From NCBI RefSeq assembly GCF_024584435.1, contig NZ_CP102197.1:868001-932000 (forward strand): 64,000 nucleotides of DNA, given 5' to 3'. The notes under the pieces are model-generated. The model was not told the origin of the DNA. It saw nothing but the letters and a program-made list of their open reading frames with translations, and made no database searches. Positions 49,834 through 58,258 of the stretch are shown in pieces. Each line of letters opens with the position of its first letter. The stretch's first letter is position 1. The stretch comes from Schaalia odontolytica. Lineage in GTDB: Bacteria; Actinomycetota; Actinomycetes; Actinomycetales; Actinomycetaceae. A program made the position numbers and the translations under genes.

Positions 49834-50844
49834 GTGACTCGAACAGACTCCGCGCGGCCGGTGCGCCCCTGGGGCGCCCTGGTGGGCACGTGCGCGCTCG
49901 TCGCCCTGGTTGCCGTGTGGGCGTTTCAGGAGGCGTTCTCCGACGTCGGCGTGCCGCTGGGGCGGGCTTCGACCATCGCAGTTGGAATGACTCTTCAGGC
50001 CGTCCCCTTCCTTCTCCTGGGTGTCCTGGTTGCCGAGCTCATCGAGGTGTACGCCTCCCCCGCCCTGATCGCGCGGGTGTTCCCCACGCGTTCCGTGGCA
50101 GCTATCGGCACCGCCCTCCTGTTCGCCTTCGCCCTTCCCGTGTGCGATTGCTCGGCGGTTCCGATCTTCCGCTCGCTCCTGCGCAAGGGCGTTCCGCTCT
50201 CCGCTGCGACCACGCTCATGCTCGCCTCTCCCGCCATCAACCCCCTGGTGGTCGCCTCCACCTGGTACGCATTTGGCTCGTGGGCGCTGGTCGGCGCACG
50301 CATCGCCCTCAGCGTCCTCGTCGCTCTCATCGTCGGCGCCTCGATGCTGGTTGCTCCCCCGCGCGCCCTGCGTGACCCCGACGGTCAGGGTCACGGCGAG
50401 CAGTGCGGCTGCTCACAGGAGTGCGCTCTGCCCGACCGGTCCGCATCCGGCGTGCTGGCGGCCACGGGCCGCTCCTTTGGCCGGATCCTTCCCTACCTCA
50501 TGGGCGGGGTGGCTGCCTCGACGCTGGCCCAGGTGGCGTGGCCGGTGTCCTCGCTGCTGTCGGGTCTGCCGGCTCCGGCCGCGCTGGCCGTCATGATGGC
50601 GGCTGGTTTCGCTCTCTCCCTGTGCTCCTCCTCCGACGCGGTAATCGCGCGTTCGTTGGCCTCGCTCGCTCCCTCGGGAGCGTTGATGGGTTTCATGGTG
50701 TTCGGTCCGATGATGGACGTGAAGAACGTTGCGCTGTTGTCCTCGCAGTTCCGCTCGTCGTTCGTCGCTCGTTTGTTGGTGACGGTGACGGCTGTCGCCG
50801 CGTGCGTGGTGGGCGTCTCGTGGTGGGCGGGGGTGCTGCCGTGA
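49834..50844 (+). CDS. DUF318/ArsP-like permease
   Basis: This 336 aa permease has about eight transmembrane helices. The duplicated halves each have the family's short motif: PVCDCSAVPI near residue 107 and LCSSSDAVIAR near 268. The cytosolic loop contains a cysteine cluster QCGCSQEC (about 190) that may bind a metal. It is co-transcribed with the TIGR03943 gene (GTGA overlap), the standard pairing in Gram-positives. The GTG at 49834 has TACAGT 6 nt upstream and no Shine-Dalgarno. The transported substrate is not known; As(III) efflux is only a family association. Confidence 0.82.
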   Translation: MTRTDSARPVRPWGALVGTCALVALVAVWAFQEAFSDVGVPLGRASTIAVGMTLQAVPFLLLGVLVAELIEVYASPALIARVFPTRSVAAIGTALLFAFALPVCDCSAVPIFRSLLRKGVPLSAATTLMLASPAINPLVVASTWYAFGSWALVGARIALSVLVALIVGASMLVAPPRALRDPDGQGHGEQCGCSQECALPDRSASGVLAATGRSFGRILPYLMGGVAASTLAQVAWPVSSLLSGLPAPAALAVMMAAGFALSLCSSSDAVIARSLASLAPSGALMGFMVFGPMMDVKNVALLSSQFRSSFVARLLVTVTAVAACVVGVSWWAGVLP

Positions 50845-51671
50845 GGCTGTTGGCTCGCATCGCTCCCGCCGCCGAGGCGCTTGCGCTGGCATGCTTGGGG
50901 GCCGTCCTCGCGTGGTTGTCCCTCTCTGGTAGGTACGCGTTCTTCGTTCCCCCGTCGGCGCGCCTGGGGATTCTCGCCTCGGGGGTGGGGTTGCTCGCGT
51001 GCGCGCTTGCCTCGTCCTCGCGGGTGGGATCGGGCGGCGAGCCAAGCGGGACCTCCTCGCACCGTGCCCTGACGCGTGCGCTCGTGACCCTGCTGGCGAG
51101 CGTGCTTCTCGTTCTTCCCTTCCGGGTGTCCCCCTCCGAGCTGGCGTCCTCAGCTCTCACGTCTCGCGGCGCCAGCGAGGAGCAGGGAGCCGGGGATGGC
51201 GAGGACCCCTCGGGAGGCATGCCGTCACGTTCCGACGAGGCCCCCGCTTCCGGCGCCGACCAGAGCACGGGAGCGGACGCCTCGAGCGATGAGACGCTGA
51301 CGCTGACGACGGAGAACTTTTCCGCGCAGGTTGAGGAGCTGTCCTCTCGCGGCCGCGCACACGATGGCCAGAGGATCGATCTTGTCGGCTTCGTCATGAG
51401 CGAGGAGTCGGCCCGCGGCCAGGCGTCGATCCCGCGCATCACGACTCAGGAGAGCTTCGCGGTGGCACGCATGGCGATCTGGTGTTGCGCGGCCGACGCC
51501 TACGCGGTTGGTTTTGCTGTGCGCTGGGAGGGAGCCGCTCCCGCAGCGGACAGCTGGGTACACGTGACGGGAACGCTGCGGGTGCGAGGCTCCAAGGCCC
51601 TCGTCATCGAGGCGGATTCGGTAGAGGAGACGAACGCGCCGAATCCCGAGTTCGTCGTTCAGGCGAGATGA
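50841..51671 (+). CDS. TIGR03943 family membrane protein
   Basis: This 276 aa protein has three hydrophobic segments (about 5-26, 36-58, 72-96), a Ser/Glu/Gly-rich linker, and a soluble domain with RIDLVGFVM, IWCCAADAYAVGF and WVHVTGTLRV, as in TIGR03943/DUF1980. The WCCAADA motif has paired cysteines that might bind metal together with the permease loop. The GTG at 50841 overlaps the permease stop. The role is probably as an accessory to the permease. No metal regulator sits beside it. Confidence 0.82.
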   Translation: MRLLARIAPAAEALALACLGAVLAWLSLSGRYAFFVPPSARLGILASGVGLLACALASSSRVGSGGEPSGTSSHRALTRALVTLLASVLLVLPFRVSPSELASSALTSRGASEEQGAGDGEDPSGGMPSRSDEAPASGADQSTGADASSDETLTLTTENFSAQVEELSSRGRAHDGQRIDLVGFVMSEESARGQASIPRITTQESFAVARMAIWCCAADAYAVGFAVRWEGAAPAADSWVHVTGTLRVRGSKALVIEADSVEETNAPNPEFVVQAR

Positions 51672-51683
51672 CACCCAAGAAAA

Positions 51684-51699
51684 TGTGACCCAGATCATT
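51684..51699. promoter_or_regulatory. Possible CRP/GlxR-type site before the sulfatase operon
   Basis: TGTGA-N6-TCATT matches one half fully and the other in three of five positions of the TGTGA-N6-TCACA consensus. It lies about 105 nt before the MFS gene start. Confidence 0.3.
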
Positions 51700-51804
51700 G
51701 TTATGGATTATGACCGTGGCTTTGGACACAAAATCGTGAGCGTACGGTGAATGGAGCGCACACGGCAGGCGCGGGCGCACCACCTCCCCTTCAAGGACGA
51801 AGAC

Positions 51805-53250
51805 ATGTCATCGACACTCTCACCATCGCCTCGCGACAGGCAAGCGAGACGCTACGCAACGGGTCTCGCACTCATCGCAACACTCGGCCCCTTCTTCTAT
51901 GGCTTCGAGGGCATGGTCCTCAACGCCGCCATCAAAGCGGTGGGCTCCACCTTCGAGCTCGGGCCCATCCTGCAGGGCGTCGCCGGTGCGGCCGGCGTGA
52001 TCGGCGGCCTCATCGGGGCCCTTGGAGCGGGACGAATCTCCGACAGGATCGGACGCAAGACCACGCTCATGTGGGTCGGTCCCTTTCTCCTCGTTGAGGC
52101 GCTCCTCGGCCCCCTCTCTCCCCTCCTCGGTTCCCTCGGATACCCCTTCTTGCTCCTGACGCGCATCATCGGTGGCATCGGCTTCGGCGCGGCAACGACG
52201 GTCGCTCCCGGCTACGTCGCCGAGATCGCTCCCGCCGAGATCCGAGGCCGCCTCATCGGATTCCGCCAGCTCGCGATCATCCTCGGCCTGTTCCTTGCGG
52301 GCCTCATCAACACGGGAGTCGTTGCTCTCACGGGCGGCGCGGCCAAGCCCGCGTTCGGCGGCCTCATGACCTGGCAGGTGCTCTTCGCGTGCCTCATCAT
52401 CCCCGCCCTGCTCTTCGTCATCTTCACGGCAAGGATCCCAGAGTCTCCCCGCTACCTGGTTTCCGCGGGGCGACGCCAGGAGGCCGAAGCCGTGCTGGCC
52501 AAGCTGTGCGGAGAGGAGGATCCGGCGGTGCGCGTCGAGGCCATCGCGCAGTCCCTGGCCGTCACGGGTGGAGCGAAGCTCTCTATCGGGCAGATCCTCT
52601 CCTCGCAGTGGCGGGGCCTCGTGTTCATCGGCATGGCAATCGCCGCGTTCCAGCAGCTCACCGGCATCAACGGGGTATTCTTCTACTCGAATTCCCTCTT
52701 CGCCGCCGTTGGCTTCACCGAGTCGATGGCGCTGGCCCAGACGTTGCTCATCACCGCCTTTAAGATCGTCGGCGTCCTTTCCGGCATCATGCTAGTGGAC
52801 CGCGTGGGCCGCAAGCGCATGCTCATCTACGGCGGGACCCTCATTTTCGTCTCGCTCGGCGTCGTGGCCACGGTCTTTACGATCGCGCCCACGGTCGACG
52901 GAAAGCCCGATGTCGCCGACTCCCCCGTCCTGGCGTTCCTTGCGGTCGCCGCGCTGTGCACGTTCCTCCTGGGCTTCACCTCCTCCTGGGGCCCCATTTT
53001 CTCCATCGTCATGGGCGAGATGTTCCCCACCTCGATCCGCGGCGGCGCGATGTCGCTGGCCTCGGGCGCTGACTTCCTCGTCAACTTTCTCGTCGTCTTG
53101 CTGTTCCCTTTCCTCATCGCGTGGTCGCCGGCTGGAACCTACTGGATCTACTGCGCCTTCGGCATCCTCGCGGTCGCTTTCACGGCGAAGTTCCTGACCG
53201 AGACCAGCGGCACCGAGCTCGAGGACATGGACAAGGTTGTCTCCCGGTAG
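51805..53250 (+). CDS. MFS sugar transporter of the sulfatase operon
   Basis: This 481 aa sugar porter has 12 transmembrane segments: GFEGMVLNAAI at TM1, ISDRIGRKTTL (loop 2-3), PESPRYLV, QLTGINGVFFYSNS in TM7, DRVGRKRML (loop 8-9) and ETSGTELEDMDKV at the end. AAGGACG precedes the ATG at 51805. It is the first gene of the set that continues with the sulfatase 44 nt downstream. By analogy with the atsT gene of Bifidobacterium breve it would import a sulfated monosaccharide such as GlcNAc-6-sulfate. Confidence 0.88.
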   Translation: MSSTLSPSPRDRQARRYATGLALIATLGPFFYGFEGMVLNAAIKAVGSTFELGPILQGVAGAAGVIGGLIGALGAGRISDRIGRKTTLMWVGPFLLVEALLGPLSPLLGSLGYPFLLLTRIIGGIGFGAATTVAPGYVAEIAPAEIRGRLIGFRQLAIILGLFLAGLINTGVVALTGGAAKPAFGGLMTWQVLFACLIIPALLFVIFTARIPESPRYLVSAGRRQEAEAVLAKLCGEEDPAVRVEAIAQSLAVTGGAKLSIGQILSSQWRGLVFIGMAIAAFQQLTGINGVFFYSNSLFAAVGFTESMALAQTLLITAFKIVGVLSGIMLVDRVGRKRMLIYGGTLIFVSLGVVATVFTIAPTVDGKPDVADSPVLAFLAVAALCTFLLGFTSSWGPIFSIVMGEMFPTSIRGGAMSLASGADFLVNFLVVLLFPFLIAWSPAGTYWIYCAFGILAVAFTAKFLTETSGTELEDMDKVVSR

Positions 53251-53294
53251 GCCCCACTGATCCCCCTGATTTCACCGATAGAAAAGGCATTCCA

Positions 53295-54815
53295 ATGACC
53301 GATAAGACACGGGACATTCCCGACAACGTCCGAAACGTCCTGGTCATCATGACCGATCAGCACCGCACCGACACGATCGGCTGCCTGGGAAATCCGCACG
53401 CGCGCACTCCCGTCATCGACGCGATGGGCGAGTCGGGCTTTGCTTTCACCCGCTGCTTCACCCCAACCGCCATCTGCACCCCCGCGCGCGCCTCGCTGCT
53501 CACGGGCAAGCGCCCCGGCAAGCACCAGGTGCTCGCCAACCCGGAGTGGAACATCGCCTACCAGGTGTCGATTCCCGAGGGCACGTGGACCTACACCCAG
53601 GAGCTGCGCGACGCCGGATACAACGTCGGCATCGTTGGCAAGTATCACTGCGGATACAACCTGCCCGATAAGTTCGGCGCCGACGACGACACCTACTGGG
53701 GCGCCGAAAACCCCGTGGCCAACGACAAGTACGTGGCGTGGCTGGAAGCCAACGGCCTCCCTCCCGTGCGCGCCCACGACCTGTGGCGCGGCACGCTTCC
53801 CGGAGGACGGCCCGGGCACATCATCGCGGCGCGCCTTGAGCAACCCGAGGAGGCCACCTTCGAGCGCTTCCTGGCCGACCGCGCGATCGACAAGCTACGC
53901 GAGTACGCGGCTGATTGGAAGGACTCGGGTCAGCCCTTCTGCCTGGACGTCCATTTCTTCGGCCCGCATCTGCCCTACTTCCTGCCCGACGAGTGGTTCG
54001 ACCTCATCGATCCAGGCGACGTGGAGCTGCCGGAGAACTTCGGGGATTCCCTTATCGGCAAGCCCCCGATCCAGAGCAACTACGCGACGTACTGGTCGAC
54101 GTCTTCCTTCTCGAACGAGCAGTGGAAGAAGCTCATCGCGGTCTACTGGGGCTACACCGCCATGATCGACTACGAGATCGGGCGCATCATGGACGCGGCG
54201 CGCGAGCTCGGCGTCCTGGACGACACCGCCGTCTTCTTCTGCGCCGATCACGGGGAGTTCACCGGCTCGCACCGCCTCAACGACAAGGGACCGATGATGT
54301 ACGACGACATCTACAACGTCCCCTTCATCGCTCACATCCCGGGGGTTTCACGGGTCGGGCGCTCGGATGCGTTCGTGTCCCTCATCGATCTGCCTGCCAC
54401 GGTCCTGGACATCGCCGGCCTGGACACCTCCCTCGTCGAGGACGGTCGCTCGATCGTGGATCTGACGCGCGGAGAGGAGGTGGAAGGCTGGCGCGAGGAC
54501 ATCGTGTGCGAGTTCCACGGTCACCATTTCCCTCTCCAGCAGCGCATGCTGCGCACGAGAGACTTCAAGCTTGTGATCAACCCGGAGTCGATCAACGAGC
54601 TCTACGACCTGCGTCTGGATCCGTCCGAGATGAACAACGTGTACACCGTGCCGGTCTACGACGAGATTCGCCGGGACCTGGCAACGAACCTGTACCTGCA
54701 ACTGCGCCAGCGCGGGGACCACTCCTTCGCGAAGTGGATGGCGGCGATGACGGACTTCGACATCCCACTGGTCAATACCGCGCGCTCCGACCTCGACGAG
54801 GTCACGAGCGAGTGA
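53295..54815 (+). CDS. atsA: Cys-type sulfatase (arylsulfatase/glycan sulfatase family)
   Basis: This 506 aa sulfatase hydrolyses sulfate esters. The sequence CTPAR at 61-65 is the C-x-P-x-R signature whose Cys61 must be oxidised to formylglycine, followed by ASLLTGKRP. Metal ligands appear in MTDQHRTD (about 20-26) and FFCADHGEFTGSH (about 316-326). There is no signal peptide, so it is cytosolic and acts on an imported substrate. The maturase is encoded downstream. AAAGG precedes the ATG at 53295. The choice of GlcNAc-6-sulfate as substrate is inference from cluster analogy. Confidence 0.92.
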   Translation: MTDKTRDIPDNVRNVLVIMTDQHRTDTIGCLGNPHARTPVIDAMGESGFAFTRCFTPTAICTPARASLLTGKRPGKHQVLANPEWNIAYQVSIPEGTWTYTQELRDAGYNVGIVGKYHCGYNLPDKFGADDDTYWGAENPVANDKYVAWLEANGLPPVRAHDLWRGTLPGGRPGHIIAARLEQPEEATFERFLADRAIDKLREYAADWKDSGQPFCLDVHFFGPHLPYFLPDEWFDLIDPGDVELPENFGDSLIGKPPIQSNYATYWSTSSFSNEQWKKLIAVYWGYTAMIDYEIGRIMDAARELGVLDDTAVFFCADHGEFTGSHRLNDKGPMMYDDIYNVPFIAHIPGVSRVGRSDAFVSLIDLPATVLDIAGLDTSLVEDGRSIVDLTRGEEVEGWREDIVCEFHGHHFPLQQRMLRTRDFKLVINPESINELYDLRLDPSEMNNVYTVPVYDEIRRDLATNLYLQLRQRGDHSFAKWMAAMTDFDIPLVNTARSDLDEVTSE

Positions 54816-54820
54816 CGCGG

Positions 54821-54849
54821 CGCCTCGGCGGCGTCCCGCCGCCGAGGCG
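54821..54849 (+). terminator. Hairpin between sulfatase and ROK gene
   Basis: Exact 11-bp arms (54821-54831 and 54839-54849) enclose a 7-nt loop, 5 nt after the sulfatase stop. No T-run follows, so read-through into atsR is possible. Confidence 0.6.
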
Positions 54850-54953
54850 ATACGCGCAGCACACTTCAAGCAGTGACGCGTATCATAGAAGCAATCGACG
54901 AGGCCGGATTGCTCCGAGCAGGCATCAACACAGCGTATGTGGGAAGGAGAGAG

Positions 54954-56171
54954 ATGCACTACCTTACGCGCAGCCCCCTTCCCACCCTGGAGGATCGCAT
55001 CGTCGATCACCTGGCCAAGGCACCGGCGACGCGCTCCCAGCTGTGCGAGGCGCTCGACACGTCCCGCACGAACCTGGGACGCGCACTCGCCACGTTGCTC
55101 CGTGACGGATCGGTCTCGTCGGCGCGCACCAGCGCCACCGGACGCGGCCGACCCACCCAGCTCCTCATCCTCAATGCGACGGCGGTTCACAGCGTCGGGC
55201 TGAACGTCACGCGCACGTCCTGCGCCGGCGTCATGCTCTCGCGCAGCGGGGCTGTCCTGGCATCCGTTCACCTCGTGTCTCCCGCTTCTTCATCCCTGCT
55301 GGGATGCGTCGAGCAGACCTGCGAGGCGCTGGCCGCGAGCGCCGCCCGTCAGGGGGTGGACACCTCGGCGGTGCGCGCGGTTGGGGTCGGCGTCCCCATT
55401 CCGATGGGGCGTCACGCCACGGCCTCGCCCGACGCCTACCCGACGGTCGCCGAACTCACTCGCGTGACGCGCCGCTGGTGGGACCCGGTTCCGGTGGTTG
55501 ACAACACCGTGCGCATGGCGGCCCTCGCGGAGGCCATGTGGGGAGCCGGAACACAGATGTCCTCATTCATCTACCTGCGCCTGTCGGGAGGCGTGGGCGG
55601 CTGCGTCGTCTCTGATTTTAGGCTCGTTGGCGGCGCCGGCGGCCTGGCCGGGGAGCTGGGCCACATGACGGTGAATGCGAGTAGTTCCCCCTGCGTGTGC
55701 GGCAAACGCGGGTGCCTCGAAACCGTGGCGTCGCTGCCCGCTTTGTGCGAGCACGCCGGCGTGAGTGACATCGCGCAGCTGCGCTCGCGCGTCCTGGCGA
55801 AGGATGCGCGTGCGTGCGAGGGCCTTGACCGTGCAGTTGCGGCCATCGGATACGTACTCGGTTGCGCGGCGCTCCTCATCAATCCGGGTGCCATCATCTT
55901 GGCCGGGGAGATTGTGGATGCGTTCCCCTCCGTACTGGCAGCCGTGAGTGCTCGCATGCATAAGGAGCTGCTGCCTGTCATGCAGTGGGATATCGACGTG
56001 GTCGGCGCTTCCCTCGGCCCGCTGGGTGCCGCCCGGGCCAGCGCTTCCATCGCGTCTCATTCCGCCACGGCGGATGAGCCCACATCTGCCGCGCCCGCGG
56101 ACGGCTTGAGCGCACAGTGCCGGTCGGCCTCGTCCGCGCCTGCCCACAGTCGTGCCAAGGCAGCGCCGTGA
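54954..56171 (+). CDS. ROK-family transcriptional regulator
   Basis: This 405 aa regulator has a winged-helix DNA-binding domain (about 12-65: TRSQLCEALDTSRTNLG) and a ROK sugar-sensing domain with the zinc-binding motif CVCGKRGCLE (about 245) and GELGHM. It would repress or activate the sulfatase/transport genes in response to the sugar. GGAAGGAGA lies 5 nt before the ATG at 54954, which decides that start over a GTG at 54873. Its tail is Ala/Ser-rich and overlaps the next gene (GTGA). ROK regulators accompany GlcNAc systems (NagC-type). Confidence 0.87.
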   Translation: MHYLTRSPLPTLEDRIVDHLAKAPATRSQLCEALDTSRTNLGRALATLLRDGSVSSARTSATGRGRPTQLLILNATAVHSVGLNVTRTSCAGVMLSRSGAVLASVHLVSPASSSLLGCVEQTCEALAASAARQGVDTSAVRAVGVGVPIPMGRHATASPDAYPTVAELTRVTRRWWDPVPVVDNTVRMAALAEAMWGAGTQMSSFIYLRLSGGVGGCVVSDFRLVGGAGGLAGELGHMTVNASSSPCVCGKRGCLETVASLPALCEHAGVSDIAQLRSRVLAKDARACEGLDRAVAAIGYVLGCAALLINPGAIILAGEIVDAFPSVLAAVSARMHKELLPVMQWDIDVVGASLGPLGAARASASIASHSATADEPTSAAPADGLSAQCRSASSAPAHSRAKAAP

Positions 56172-57436
56172 GCCGATCGATCCCCTTCTCCGTGGTGACC
56201 AAACCGACGGGTGCCGCCTGCAACCTGGATTGCCAGTACTGCTTCTTCCTGTCCAAGGAGCTGCTCTATGATGCTGCCGCGCAGACCATGTCGGAGCAGA
56301 CCCTGGAGCGTTACGTGCGTGCGTTCTTAGACTCAAGCCCCGACGGCGAAGTCACGATGCTCTGGCAGGGCGGCGAACCGACCCTTCGGGGGCTCGCCTT
56401 CTTTGAGCGGATGGTACAGCTGTGTGAACTCCACCGTCGGCCCACCCAGCGCGTGCGCCACGCCTTGCAGACGAACGGCACTCTGATCACGCGCGAATGG
56501 GCGCGTTTCTTCGCCGACCACGACGTGCTCGTGGGGGTTTCCATTGACGGCCCAGCTGAGCTGCACGACGCGTATCGTCTCAATCGCGGCGGGCGCGGAA
56601 CGCACGCGATGGTCGTGCGCGGCTGGGAGCTGCTCGCGCAAGCGGGCGTGGAGACAAACATCCTGTGCACGGTCAACGCTGCCAACGAAGACCACGGCGA
56701 GGAGGTCTACCGGTATTTCCGTGACGAGCTGGGGGCACGCTACCTGCAGTTCATCCCCATTGTCGAGCGTGTACGCGCCGCCGACCTCGCCCAGGCGGAG
56801 CGCGGCTGGCGCTCGGGCACCTCCGCGCTCCTGTATCGCCAGGACGGGGACTGCGTGACCAGCCGTTCGACCTCGCCGCGCTCCTACGGTCGTTTCCTGT
56901 GCGACGTGTTCGATCAATGGCTGGCATCGGACGTGGGGCAGGTGTTCATCCAGGACGTGGACTCGACGCTCTCGGCCATGTTCGGTTCTGCCTCGGTGTG
57001 CGTGCACGCCCCCCGGTGCGGGGCGAACATGGCAATGGAGTTCAACGGCGACGTCTATGCCTGCGACCACTGGGTGGAACCCGAATGGCTCGTCGGCTCG
57101 ATCGAGTCCTCCTCGTTCGCCCGCCTCGCCGCCTCCGAGAAGATGCGTGAGTTCGCGCGCCTCAAGCCTGACCTGGATGAGGAGTGCCGCGCGTGCCCCC
57201 ACCTGCGGCTGTGTTGGGGCGGCTGCCCGAAGGATCGCTTCGTGGCGCGCCGAGACGGTAGGACACACAACTACCTGTGCGAGGGCTACCGCGCTTTCTA
57301 CGAGCATTCCACCCCCGCGCTGCGCGCCATCGGGATGCTCATCTCGGCGGGCAGGCCCGCCTCGGACATCATGAATCCGACGGTCGCTTCGTCGCTTCGA
57401 CTCACGCACTCCATGTCCGCAGGGAAGCAGCAATGA
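56168..57436 (+). CDS. atsB: Anaerobic sulfatase-maturating enzyme (radical SAM, anSME)
   Basis: This 422 aa radical SAM enzyme converts the sulfatase active-site Cys to formylglycine without oxygen. Cys18, Cys22 and Cys25 (CNLDCQYC) hold the radical SAM cluster. The SPASM-type C-terminal region has CGANMAMEFNGDVYACDHW and CRACPHLRLCWGGCPKD with a last Cys in YLCEGY, matching the two auxiliary [4Fe-4S] clusters of anSME. The GTG at 56168 overlaps the ROK stop and the end overlaps tauE (ATGA). Its presence explains how the Cys-type sulfatase is matured under anaerobic conditions. Confidence 0.93.
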   Translation: MSRSIPFSVVTKPTGAACNLDCQYCFFLSKELLYDAAAQTMSEQTLERYVRAFLDSSPDGEVTMLWQGGEPTLRGLAFFERMVQLCELHRRPTQRVRHALQTNGTLITREWARFFADHDVLVGVSIDGPAELHDAYRLNRGGRGTHAMVVRGWELLAQAGVETNILCTVNAANEDHGEEVYRYFRDELGARYLQFIPIVERVRAADLAQAERGWRSGTSALLYRQDGDCVTSRSTSPRSYGRFLCDVFDQWLASDVGQVFIQDVDSTLSAMFGSASVCVHAPRCGANMAMEFNGDVYACDHWVEPEWLVGSIESSSFARLAASEKMREFARLKPDLDEECRACPHLRLCWGGCPKDRFVARRDGRTHNYLCEGYRAFYEHSTPALRAIGMLISAGRPASDIMNPTVASSLRLTHSMSAGKQQ

Positions 57437-58221
57437 TCATTGAGGCGCTCCTCATCGGCGCATTCGTCGGCATCGTCGTCGGTTCGCTCGGAGCGGGAGG
57501 CGGCATCCTGTCGGTGCCGATTCTCGTCTACCTCCTCGGGCAGGACCCCCACCAGGCGACGGGCCTGTCGCTGATCATCGTGGGGCTCACGGCCGCCGTG
57601 TCGTTGGCGATGCGCGCTCGCGGCACCGACGTTGCGTGGCGCGAGGGCAGCCTTTTTGCCCTGGCGGGCCTGGCGGGGACATGGGCGGGATCCACCCTGG
57701 GTCCTCTCGTGTCCGCGTCCGCCCTCATGCTCTCGTTTTGCGCGCTCCTGGGTGTGGTCGCTCTCTTCATGGTGCGCTCGCACCTCTCCCCGGTGTCGTC
57801 GTTGCCAAAGGCTCCCGTCAGCCAGGCCGCCCCCTCGGGGGTCTCCGCGCTCGTGCGGGTCGTCGTCCTGGCGACAGCGACGGGCTTCCTGACCGGGTTC
57901 TTCGGAGTCGGCGGCGGTTTCGCGATCGTTCCCGCGTTGCACCTGGCGCTGCGCTATCCGATGAAGCGTGCCTCCGCCACTTCCCTGCTGGTCATGGTCA
58001 TCACGGCCGCTTTCGGTGTGGTCTCGCGCTCGCTCGCCGGCTCCTTCACGATCACCGCCGAGGCAGGGGTCATGGTCGCGCTGTTCACCGCGGCGTCCAT
58101 GGCTGGGGGCATCGTCGGCGCGAGGGTGACGACGCGGGTACCCAACAGGGTTCTCGGCCTCGTGTTCGCGGCCCTCTTGGTCGGCGTGGCCCTCTCCACG
58201 CTGGTGGCCACGCTCTCGTGA
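57433..58221 (+). CDS. TauE/SafE-family sulfite/sulfate exporter
   Basis: This 262 aa membrane protein has about eight hydrophobic helices. The GAGGGILSVPIL at the start and GVGGGFAIVPAL in the second half are the duplicated TauE/SafE motif. It overlaps the maturase stop (ATGA) and closes the operon. In this setting it probably exports the sulfate (or a derived sulfur anion) released by the sulfatase, which would stop the anion accumulating in the cell. That is inference from position. Confidence 0.88.
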   Translation: MIIEALLIGAFVGIVVGSLGAGGGILSVPILVYLLGQDPHQATGLSLIIVGLTAAVSLAMRARGTDVAWREGSLFALAGLAGTWAGSTLGPLVSASALMLSFCALLGVVALFMVRSHLSPVSSLPKAPVSQAAPSGVSALVRVVVLATATGFLTGFFGVGGGFAIVPALHLALRYPMKRASATSLLVMVITAAFGVVSRSLAGSFTITAEAGVMVALFTAASMAGGIVGARVTTRVPNRVLGLVFAALLVGVALSTLVATLS

Positions 58222-58258
58222 GCGGGCGTGCGAGACGCCGTGTCTCGCGCGCCCGCTC
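58220..58258. terminator. Bidirectional terminator after the sulfatase operon
   Basis: 17-bp arms (58220-58236 and 58242-58258) pair with one G-T wobble around a 5-nt loop. It lies between convergent genes. The first arm includes the last bases of the stop codon. Confidence 0.75.

Follow-up and report, generated by a model that had tools for sequence, protein, structure and literature searches.

A five-gene locus of Schaalia odontolytica proposed as a scavenging cassette for N-acetylglucosamine-6-sulfate and as a variant of the bifidobacterial ats2 cluster

The reference point for the locus described here is the ats2 cluster of Bifidobacterium breve, of which Egan et al. (2016) is said to be the primary account. 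We analyzed a 64,000-nucleotide stretch of Schaalia odontolytica DNA (contig NZ_CP102197.1, positions 868,001 to 932,000 of the forward strand; hereafter the window), which is part of a single-contig 2.39-Mb genome, and within it a set of genes for a sugar porter, a Cys-type sulfatase, a ROK-family regulator, an anaerobic sulfatase-maturating enzyme (anSME), and a TauE/SafE membrane protein. In the available part of its description, the ats2 cluster of strain UCC2003 (Bbr_0846-0854) comprises nagA1, nagB2, a ROK kinase, a ROK regulator, and an epimerase, followed in this order by a transporter (Bbr_0851), atsA2 (Bbr_0852), atsB2 (Bbr_0853), and a DUF81 protein (Bbr_0854) (PMC5144078). According to sources likewise available in part, B. 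breve grows on N-acetylglucosamine-6-sulfate (GlcNAc-6-S) but no longer does so after deletion of both nagA genes (PMC6045583), and AtsR2 is the repressor of the cluster, with GlcNAc-6-S as its reported effector (PMC9599254). The comparison below makes it very probable that the S. odontolytica locus is a scavenging cassette for GlcNAc-6-S, the sugar being set free from sulfated mucin by other bacteria.

All five open reading frames that an earlier note on this DNA had placed in one direction were found on the + strand, and profile matches confirmed their families (Table 1). The overlaps that it had read among the last three genes are each 4 bases long, with GTGA between the ROK and anSME genes and ATGA between the anSME and TauE genes. 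For the porter, an AAGGA upstream and conservation of the start in L002-L004 make ATG 51805 the likeliest start codon; the gene ends 44 bases before that of the sulfatase begins. For comparison, a genome scan retained the best 80 of 204 relatives (L002-L081), comprising a host-type set of 45 loci from Actinomycetaceae, Bifidobacteriaceae, Corynebacterium, Cutibacterium, and Tessaracoccus (L002-L046) and another set of 35 loci (L047-L081); neighbors were counted within about 8 kb of the sulfatase, with some contigs ending early. The porter, ROK, anSME, and TauE genes all surround the sulfatase in 19 of the 45 host-type loci, more than expected by chance.

Table 1. Features of the proposed cassette (positions in the window)
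Feature	Length	Position	Strand	Evidence or remark
CRP/GlxR-like palindrome TGTGA-N6-TCATT		51684..51699	+	upstream of porter; two mismatches to TGTGA-N6-TCACA
MFS sugar porter, proposed sulfated-sugar importer (AtsT-like)	481 aa	51805..53250	+	TIGR00879, 300 bits (cut-off 237.8)
Formylglycine-type S1 sulfatase	506 aa	53295..54815	+	PF00884, 144 bits; SGSH_C
Perfect 11-bp-stem hairpin		54822..54848	+	between sulfatase and ROK genes
Second CRP-like near-palindrome AGTGACGCGTATCATA		54872..54887	+	before ROK gene; two mismatches
ROK-family transcriptional regulator	405 aa	54954..56171	+	PF00480, 112 bits; C-x-C-G-x2-G-C-x-E signature
Anaerobic sulfatase-maturating enzyme (radical SAM/SPASM)	422 aa	56168..57436	+	TIGR03942, 420 bits (cut-off 349.45)
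TauE/SafE (DUF81) membrane protein, proposed sulfate exporter	262 aa	57433..58221	+	PF01925, 143 bits

The likeness to ats2, which the earlier note had drawn, held up. All nine genes of Bbr_0846-0854 recur in the same order in three relatives (L031, L032, and L035); L034 is without anSME and TauE, and the contig of L039 ends early. The window sulfatase is 72-75% identical to Bifidobacteriaceae sulfatases standing in such synteny, and the porter is 63-66% identical to those of five Bifidobacteriaceae loci with ats2-like order. The published order of transporter, sulfatase, anSME, and DUF81/TauE gene, DUF81 being the older name of the TauE family, is found in the window with a ROK gene inserted, and nagA, nagB, and a ROK kinase gene are absent from the open reading frames of the locus and its flanks.

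The sulfatase has the features of a formylglycine-dependent S1 enzyme. The motif C61-T-P-A-R65 is exactly as the earlier note had read it, and the active-site set to be expected of a sulfatase, D21, Q22, C61, R65, K116, H118, H225, D318, H319, and K331, is complete; these ten residues do not vary among the 16 sequences aligned (the window and 15 relatives). The sulfatase is 96% identical to that of L002 and 95% identical to those of S. odontolytica (L003) and Actinomyces sp. HPA0247 (L004). No signal peptide was evident by eye (no predictor was run), and a PF00884 search of the S. odontolytica genome returned this protein as the sole match. The anSME indeed has all the cysteines that had been expected of it: the radical SAM motif CX3CX2C and eight more, aligned to 4k36, which presumably serve as ligands at the two auxiliary cluster sites. 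Host-type loci contain anSME in 36 of 45 cases and its aerobic counterpart FGE in none, whereas FGE occurs in 24 and anSME in none of the 35 other loci.

The last gene encodes a putative sulfate exporter. No match to PF01507 was found in the S. odontolytica genome, compared to matches in 14 of 14 control genomes, so that sulfate looks like waste or a dead end in this organism, in keeping with an exporter. It is unlikely, in our judgment, that the TauE protein handles an anion other than sulfate, such as sulfite, and that its place in the operon is incidental; TauE/SafE proteins are named for sulfite/sulfoacetate export, and no solved relative was found at E<=1, but a TauE-family member accompanies the cassette in 28 of 45 host-type loci across Actinomycetaceae, Bifidobacteriaceae, and Corynebacterium, compared to none of the 35 other loci.

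Judged from genomic context, GlcNAc-6-S is the likeliest substrate. Within the host-type loci, nagA is a neighbor in 5, nagB in 6, and GH20 in 5 of 45, and all five GH20 proteins have the catalytic D-E pair together with the motif YLNR; their genes adjoin the sulfatase gene in L021 and L026 and lie farther away in L030 and L043, and the protein of L038 is a 210-aa fragment. The N-termini in L021, L026, and L030 showed no evident signal peptide by eye (no predictor was run). According to the available part of PMC11659886, this motif binds the 6-sulfate in human HexA through its N and R. With the L026 GH20 as query, matches were obtained in 69 of 213 Actinomycetaceae genomes, and 30 of these matches were read for the motif. 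Among the 21 read in sulfatase-positive genomes, 12 have YLNR (one of them, G120, through L021_5 itself, at the same coordinates), 4 have YFNK, YLNH, YFNQ, and YLNH, and 5 have lost the motif, whereas none of the 9 read in sulfatase-negative genomes has YLNR. All 12 genomes found to have a YLNR-GH20 thus contain the sulfatase, compared to 46 of 213 overall (Fisher p 3e-9, with unread genomes counted as motif-less and shared ancestry inflating the significance). Within the genus, the window genome's own GH20-like protein used as query (E<=1e-20) matches 10 of 15 sulfatase-positive genomes vs 1 of 20 sulfatase-negative ones, with three more sulfatase-negative genomes (G151, G154, and G157) matched weakly by the L026 query, at E<=1e-15 or better.

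The sole GH20 match of the S. odontolytica genome has lost the catalytic D-E pair, and no GH20-mediated release of GlcNAc-6-S by this organism is therefore expected (other glycosidase families were not searched). The earlier note's proposal that the organism forages sulfated host glycans is better put as scavenging of the free sulfated sugar, because the only GH20 match is without its D-E pair and there is no second PF00884 match. The GH20-like gene itself (G000:C1:1224221-1225360; L085:8222-9361, L096, L129) has neither the catalytic pair nor the sulfate motif; related pseudoenzymes in four Schaalia-type genomes (G161, G164, G165, and G168) keep open frames with pairwise dN/dS of 0.13-0.29, dS being 1.0-1.7 and near saturation in 7 of 10 pairs, and the protein appears to be a conserved non-catalytic GH20. 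A nagB scoring above its cut-off is present elsewhere in the genome near a ROK-family kinase-like protein, which reaches the cut-off of none of the NCBIfam kinase models listed.

Several observations weigh against GlcNAc-6-S scavenging as proposed here. Orthology of the sulfatase with AtsA2 is drawn through the syntenic Bifidobacteriaceae relatives, B. breve AtsA2 itself lying outside the comparison. The nagA-like match of the S. odontolytica genome is below its curated cut-off (198 vs 225.65 bits), and nagB, found in 199 of 213 family genomes, is so nearly universal that its presence is uninformative. Thirty-four of the 46 sulfatase genomes, the window's own included, were not found to have a YLNR-GH20. 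Neither a porter nor a sulfonate-type importer is found beside the sulfatase in 12 of 45 host-type loci, including L005-L007, where the other four genes of the cassette (sulfatase, ROK, anSME, and TauE) are retained. Distant relatives (sulfatase 52-58% identical) accompany sulfonate-type ATP-binding cassette (ABC) importers and GH43-like proteins, so that other sulfate esters may be substrates in the wider family. Finally, the DKR of the S1_11 structures 5g2v and 7p24, which we take to be the site of the S1_11 Asp/Arg dyad, aligns with DKG in the window (D330-K-G-P). The S1_11 recognition triad consists of an Asp/Arg dyad and a His, according to the available part of PMC10154612, in which residue numbers are absent. 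Membership of the sulfatase in S1_11 was rejected on the ground that the dyad for O4 recognition is not conserved.

Structural comparison places the sulfatase apart from solved enzymes. The best solved relatives share about 26% identity, and the S1_11 enzymes BT4656 and BT3177 share 21-22% in structural alignments; with the predicted model, Foldseek ranked PsS1_NC, an iota-carrageenan sulfatase, 1st, BT1918 (S1_46) 11th, BT3177 26th, and BT4656 41st. The model has a pLDDT of 82, with values <50 at residues 83-87, 135-138, 259-265, 327-333, and 409-413, among others, and these stretches probably include pocket regions. The fold ranking and the dyad that is not conserved favor an enzyme for a different sulfated sugar or for several, e.g., 6-sulfated glucose or galactose or GlcNS-6S from heparan sulfate, within a general sulfated-monosaccharide module, as does the metal set D21/Q22/D318/H319, which we take to be reminiscent of promiscuous phosphonate monoester hydrolases. 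Nevertheless, we consider such a specificity quite improbable in view of the nag genes and YLNR-GH20s found as neighbors or companions and of the GlcNAc-6-S phenotype published for ats2 (PMC9599254, PMC6045583, both available in part).

Relatives differ in the importer that stands with the sulfatase. The closest solved relatives of the window porter, a member of the major facilitator superfamily (MFS), are D-xylose symporter entries, and such a porter is found in 29 of 45 host-type loci, one of which (L016) is a partial match. A sulfonate-type ABC permease occurs in 4 of the 45, and a sulfonate-type ABC system occurs in 34 of the 35 other loci; no locus among L002-L046 combines a porter with a sulfonate-type importer, and in the other set the distal end of locus L080 gives a porter match of 32%. 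In L040-L043 and L048-L081, a sulfonate/taurine-type ABC importer is linked to the same sulfatase lineage and a ROK regulator, ROK-family proteins being present in 39 of 45 host-type loci (a count that includes a kinase, L029) and in 35 of 35 others. The binding proteins of L080 and L042, the two scanned, score above the SsuA-family cut-off. It appears that the sulfonate-type importer stands in for the porter in these relatives, and its use with the same sulfatase lineage is the boldest open lead of the analysis. That the locus cleaves sulfate esters to obtain sulfur, like Ssu/Tau-type systems, would suit these importers in Streptomyces and others but is highly improbable given the ROK regulators, where LysR types are the usual sulfur regulators, and the distribution of TauE, and it was rejected as a purpose in the S. 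odontolytica genome for want of a PF01507 match.

A GH43-like protein lies near the sulfatase in 25 of 35 loci of L047-L081, that of L069 having a PF04616 match of 64 bits and an apparent Tat-type leader (by eye); the substrate of this protein may show what the soil relatives use. A broader proposal, which we put forward tentatively and at slightly less than even chances, is that Actinobacteria have their own non-S1_11 cytosolic GlcNAc-6-sulfatase lineage as a core with exchangeable importers, namely, an MFS porter where the sugar is free, an ABC importer for sugars plus an internal YLNR-GH20 6-sulfo-GlcNAcase where oligosaccharides are taken up, and, surprisingly, a sulfonate/taurine-type ABC importer for a sulfated sugar, with the GH20 of the window's clade a pseudoenzyme under purifying selection.

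The regulator belongs to the ROK family, as the ats2 analogy had implied, but is not the ats2 ROK either by position or by similarity. It is 36% identical to the ROK protein of Boudabousia L030 over 369 columns, 34% to that of Streptomyces L080 over 342, and 29% to that of Gleimia L042 over 360, and it matches the bifidobacterial ats2-type ROK of L031 at 30% over only 224 columns; it is thus nearer to the first three than to AtsR2-type repressors. The ATG at 54954, with GGAAGGAG upstream, is the most likely start, a longer reading beginning at GTG 54873. CRP-like sites precede both the porter and the ROK gene. With up to two mismatches, such a site was found upstream of the porter in 18 of 29 regions, i.e., the window and 28 loci with a strong porter match, whereas 60 rounds of shuffling gave 3.0 on average and 7 at most; the 29 rows include several close relatives and hence are not independent of one another. 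The site is missing from five of the six rows of bifidobacterial type (L031, L032, L034, L038, and L039). The site before the ROK gene, AGTGACGCGTATCATA, is identical in L002-L006, all close relatives. CRP-like sites are not enriched in the whole window (9 found vs 15 expected). A narrower palindrome was rejected as ROK operator, with 9 of 109 upstream regions having it and 2 expected, 5 of the 9 being one identical site in close relatives; the broader CRP-type pattern fits better.

That all five genes form one operon, as had been claimed, is only one of two readings: the sulfatase-ROK gap, 138 bases long with the ROK start at ATG 54954, holds a GC-rich hairpin. This 11-bp stem is a single copy in the window and appears in 0 of 100 shuffles; its arms are conserved with few differences and its loop is variable in L002-L006, and the 146-nt stretch around it folds with a z of -2.6, 2 of 200 shuffles folding equally well. 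A terminator scan requiring a T run did not report it, and a sigma-70 promoter scan gave no match. The hairpin may be a partial terminator or processing element, and together with the CRP-like site before each part it makes two transcription units with common CRP-type control possible. Directly upstream, an ArsP_1 (PF03773) permease and its TIGR03943/DUF1980 partner (window 49834-51671) also adjoin the cassette in Schaalia-type loci.

In the pathway that we infer, the porter would import the sulfated monosaccharide, the anSME would turn Cys61 of the sulfatase into formylglycine, as known from its family, and the cytosolic sulfatase would cleave off the sulfate, the reaction type being suggested by family and the substrate by context. 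The resulting GlcNAc would be processed by a ROK kinase, NagA, and NagB, the genes of which lie outside the locus, and the TauE/SafE protein would dispose of sulfate, unusable to a cell without assimilatory sulfate reduction. The ROK regulator would sense the sulfated sugar, repressing the genes until it or its product binds, and the conserved CRP-type site upstream of the porter would add catabolite control.

The spread of the cassette is patchy. Of 213 Actinomycetaceae genomes, 46 have the sulfatase (E<=1e-100), and 15 of the 36 genera are represented among them; the count includes two distant copies (G086 and G108, 49-54%) and G150, which has internal stops. The sulfatase of Mobiluncus mulieris is nested among the bifidobacterial ones in the tree (bootstrap not fully settled), and Mobiluncus porci has a sulfonate-type importer. 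Together, these observations point to transfer as well as exchange of importers in the history of the cassette. The sulfatase gene at G150:C1:384823-385944 has two internal TGA stops, and Pauljensenia hongkongensis (L045) gives a shortened match; both look like decay in single lineages. Four loci titled Sanguibacter, Xylanimonas, Tissierella, and Trueperella pyogenes (L002, L006, L014, and L022) have sulfatases identical or nearly so to those of Schaalia/Actinomyces or Varibaculum, with similar flanks, and are probably misnamed.

Altogether, a GlcNAc-6-S scavenging cassette is well supported, ordinary in kind and new in detail. Gene content, motif conservation, and co-occurrence are observed directly, and substrate, direction of transport, effector, and sulfate export are deduced from them. 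GlcNAc-6-S scavenging, so far a trait of a bifidobacterium from the gut, is thereby extended to host-associated actinomycetes, those of oral type included. The locus also indicates a second sequence solution to GlcNAc-6-S recognition, with about 26% identity to the best solved structure, and raises the possibility that sulfated sugars are among the substrates of sulfonate-type ABC importers; the sulfatase together with a YLNR-GH20 provides a testable marker for the use of sulfated mucin sugars outside Bacteroidota. Searches of mostly open literature found nothing among the matches listed on sulfatases or mucin in Schaalia odontolytica / Actinomyces odontolyticus, nothing on topic by title for Actinomyces with GlcNAc-6-sulfate, sulfatase, ROK, or sulfate exporter, and nothing joining sulfatase, aliphatic sulfonate importer, ROK family, and FGE in Streptomyces. 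The available parts of PMC8379841, PMC5066984, and PMC10688832 contain nothing on actinobacterial GlcNAc-6-sulfatases. In the available part of a 2017 survey of gut genomes (PMC5583593), GlcNAc-6-sulfatase genes are reported only in Bacteroidetes and Akkermansia, so the actinobacterial type was overlooked there.

Three described or recurrent systems frame the locus. The S1_11 enzymes BT4656 and BT3177 of Bacteroides share with the window sulfatase the formylglycine S1 fold and, probably, the reaction on GlcNAc-6-S; the window enzyme differs in its low identity to them, in DKG for DKR, and in having no evident signal peptide, whereas the B. theta sulfatases described in the available part of PMC10154612 are periplasmic or surface-located. 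The loci of Streptomyces, Promicromonospora, and Actinomadura (L048-L081) have a 52-55% identical sulfatase and a ROK match in every case but a sulfonate-family ABC importer in place of the porter, FGE for anSME in most, and no nearby TauE. The ats2 cluster shares transporter, sulfatase, anSME, and DUF81/TauE in common order, with ROK control, but also contains nagA1, nagB2, a ROK kinase, and an aldose-1-epimerase, where the nag genes of S. odontolytica lie elsewhere in the genome, and its ROK gene stands upstream, where a different one stands here between sulfatase and anSME. The S. odontolytica locus appears to work like ats2 and has its core, yet is best regarded as a variant of that cluster and not as ats2 in the strict sense.

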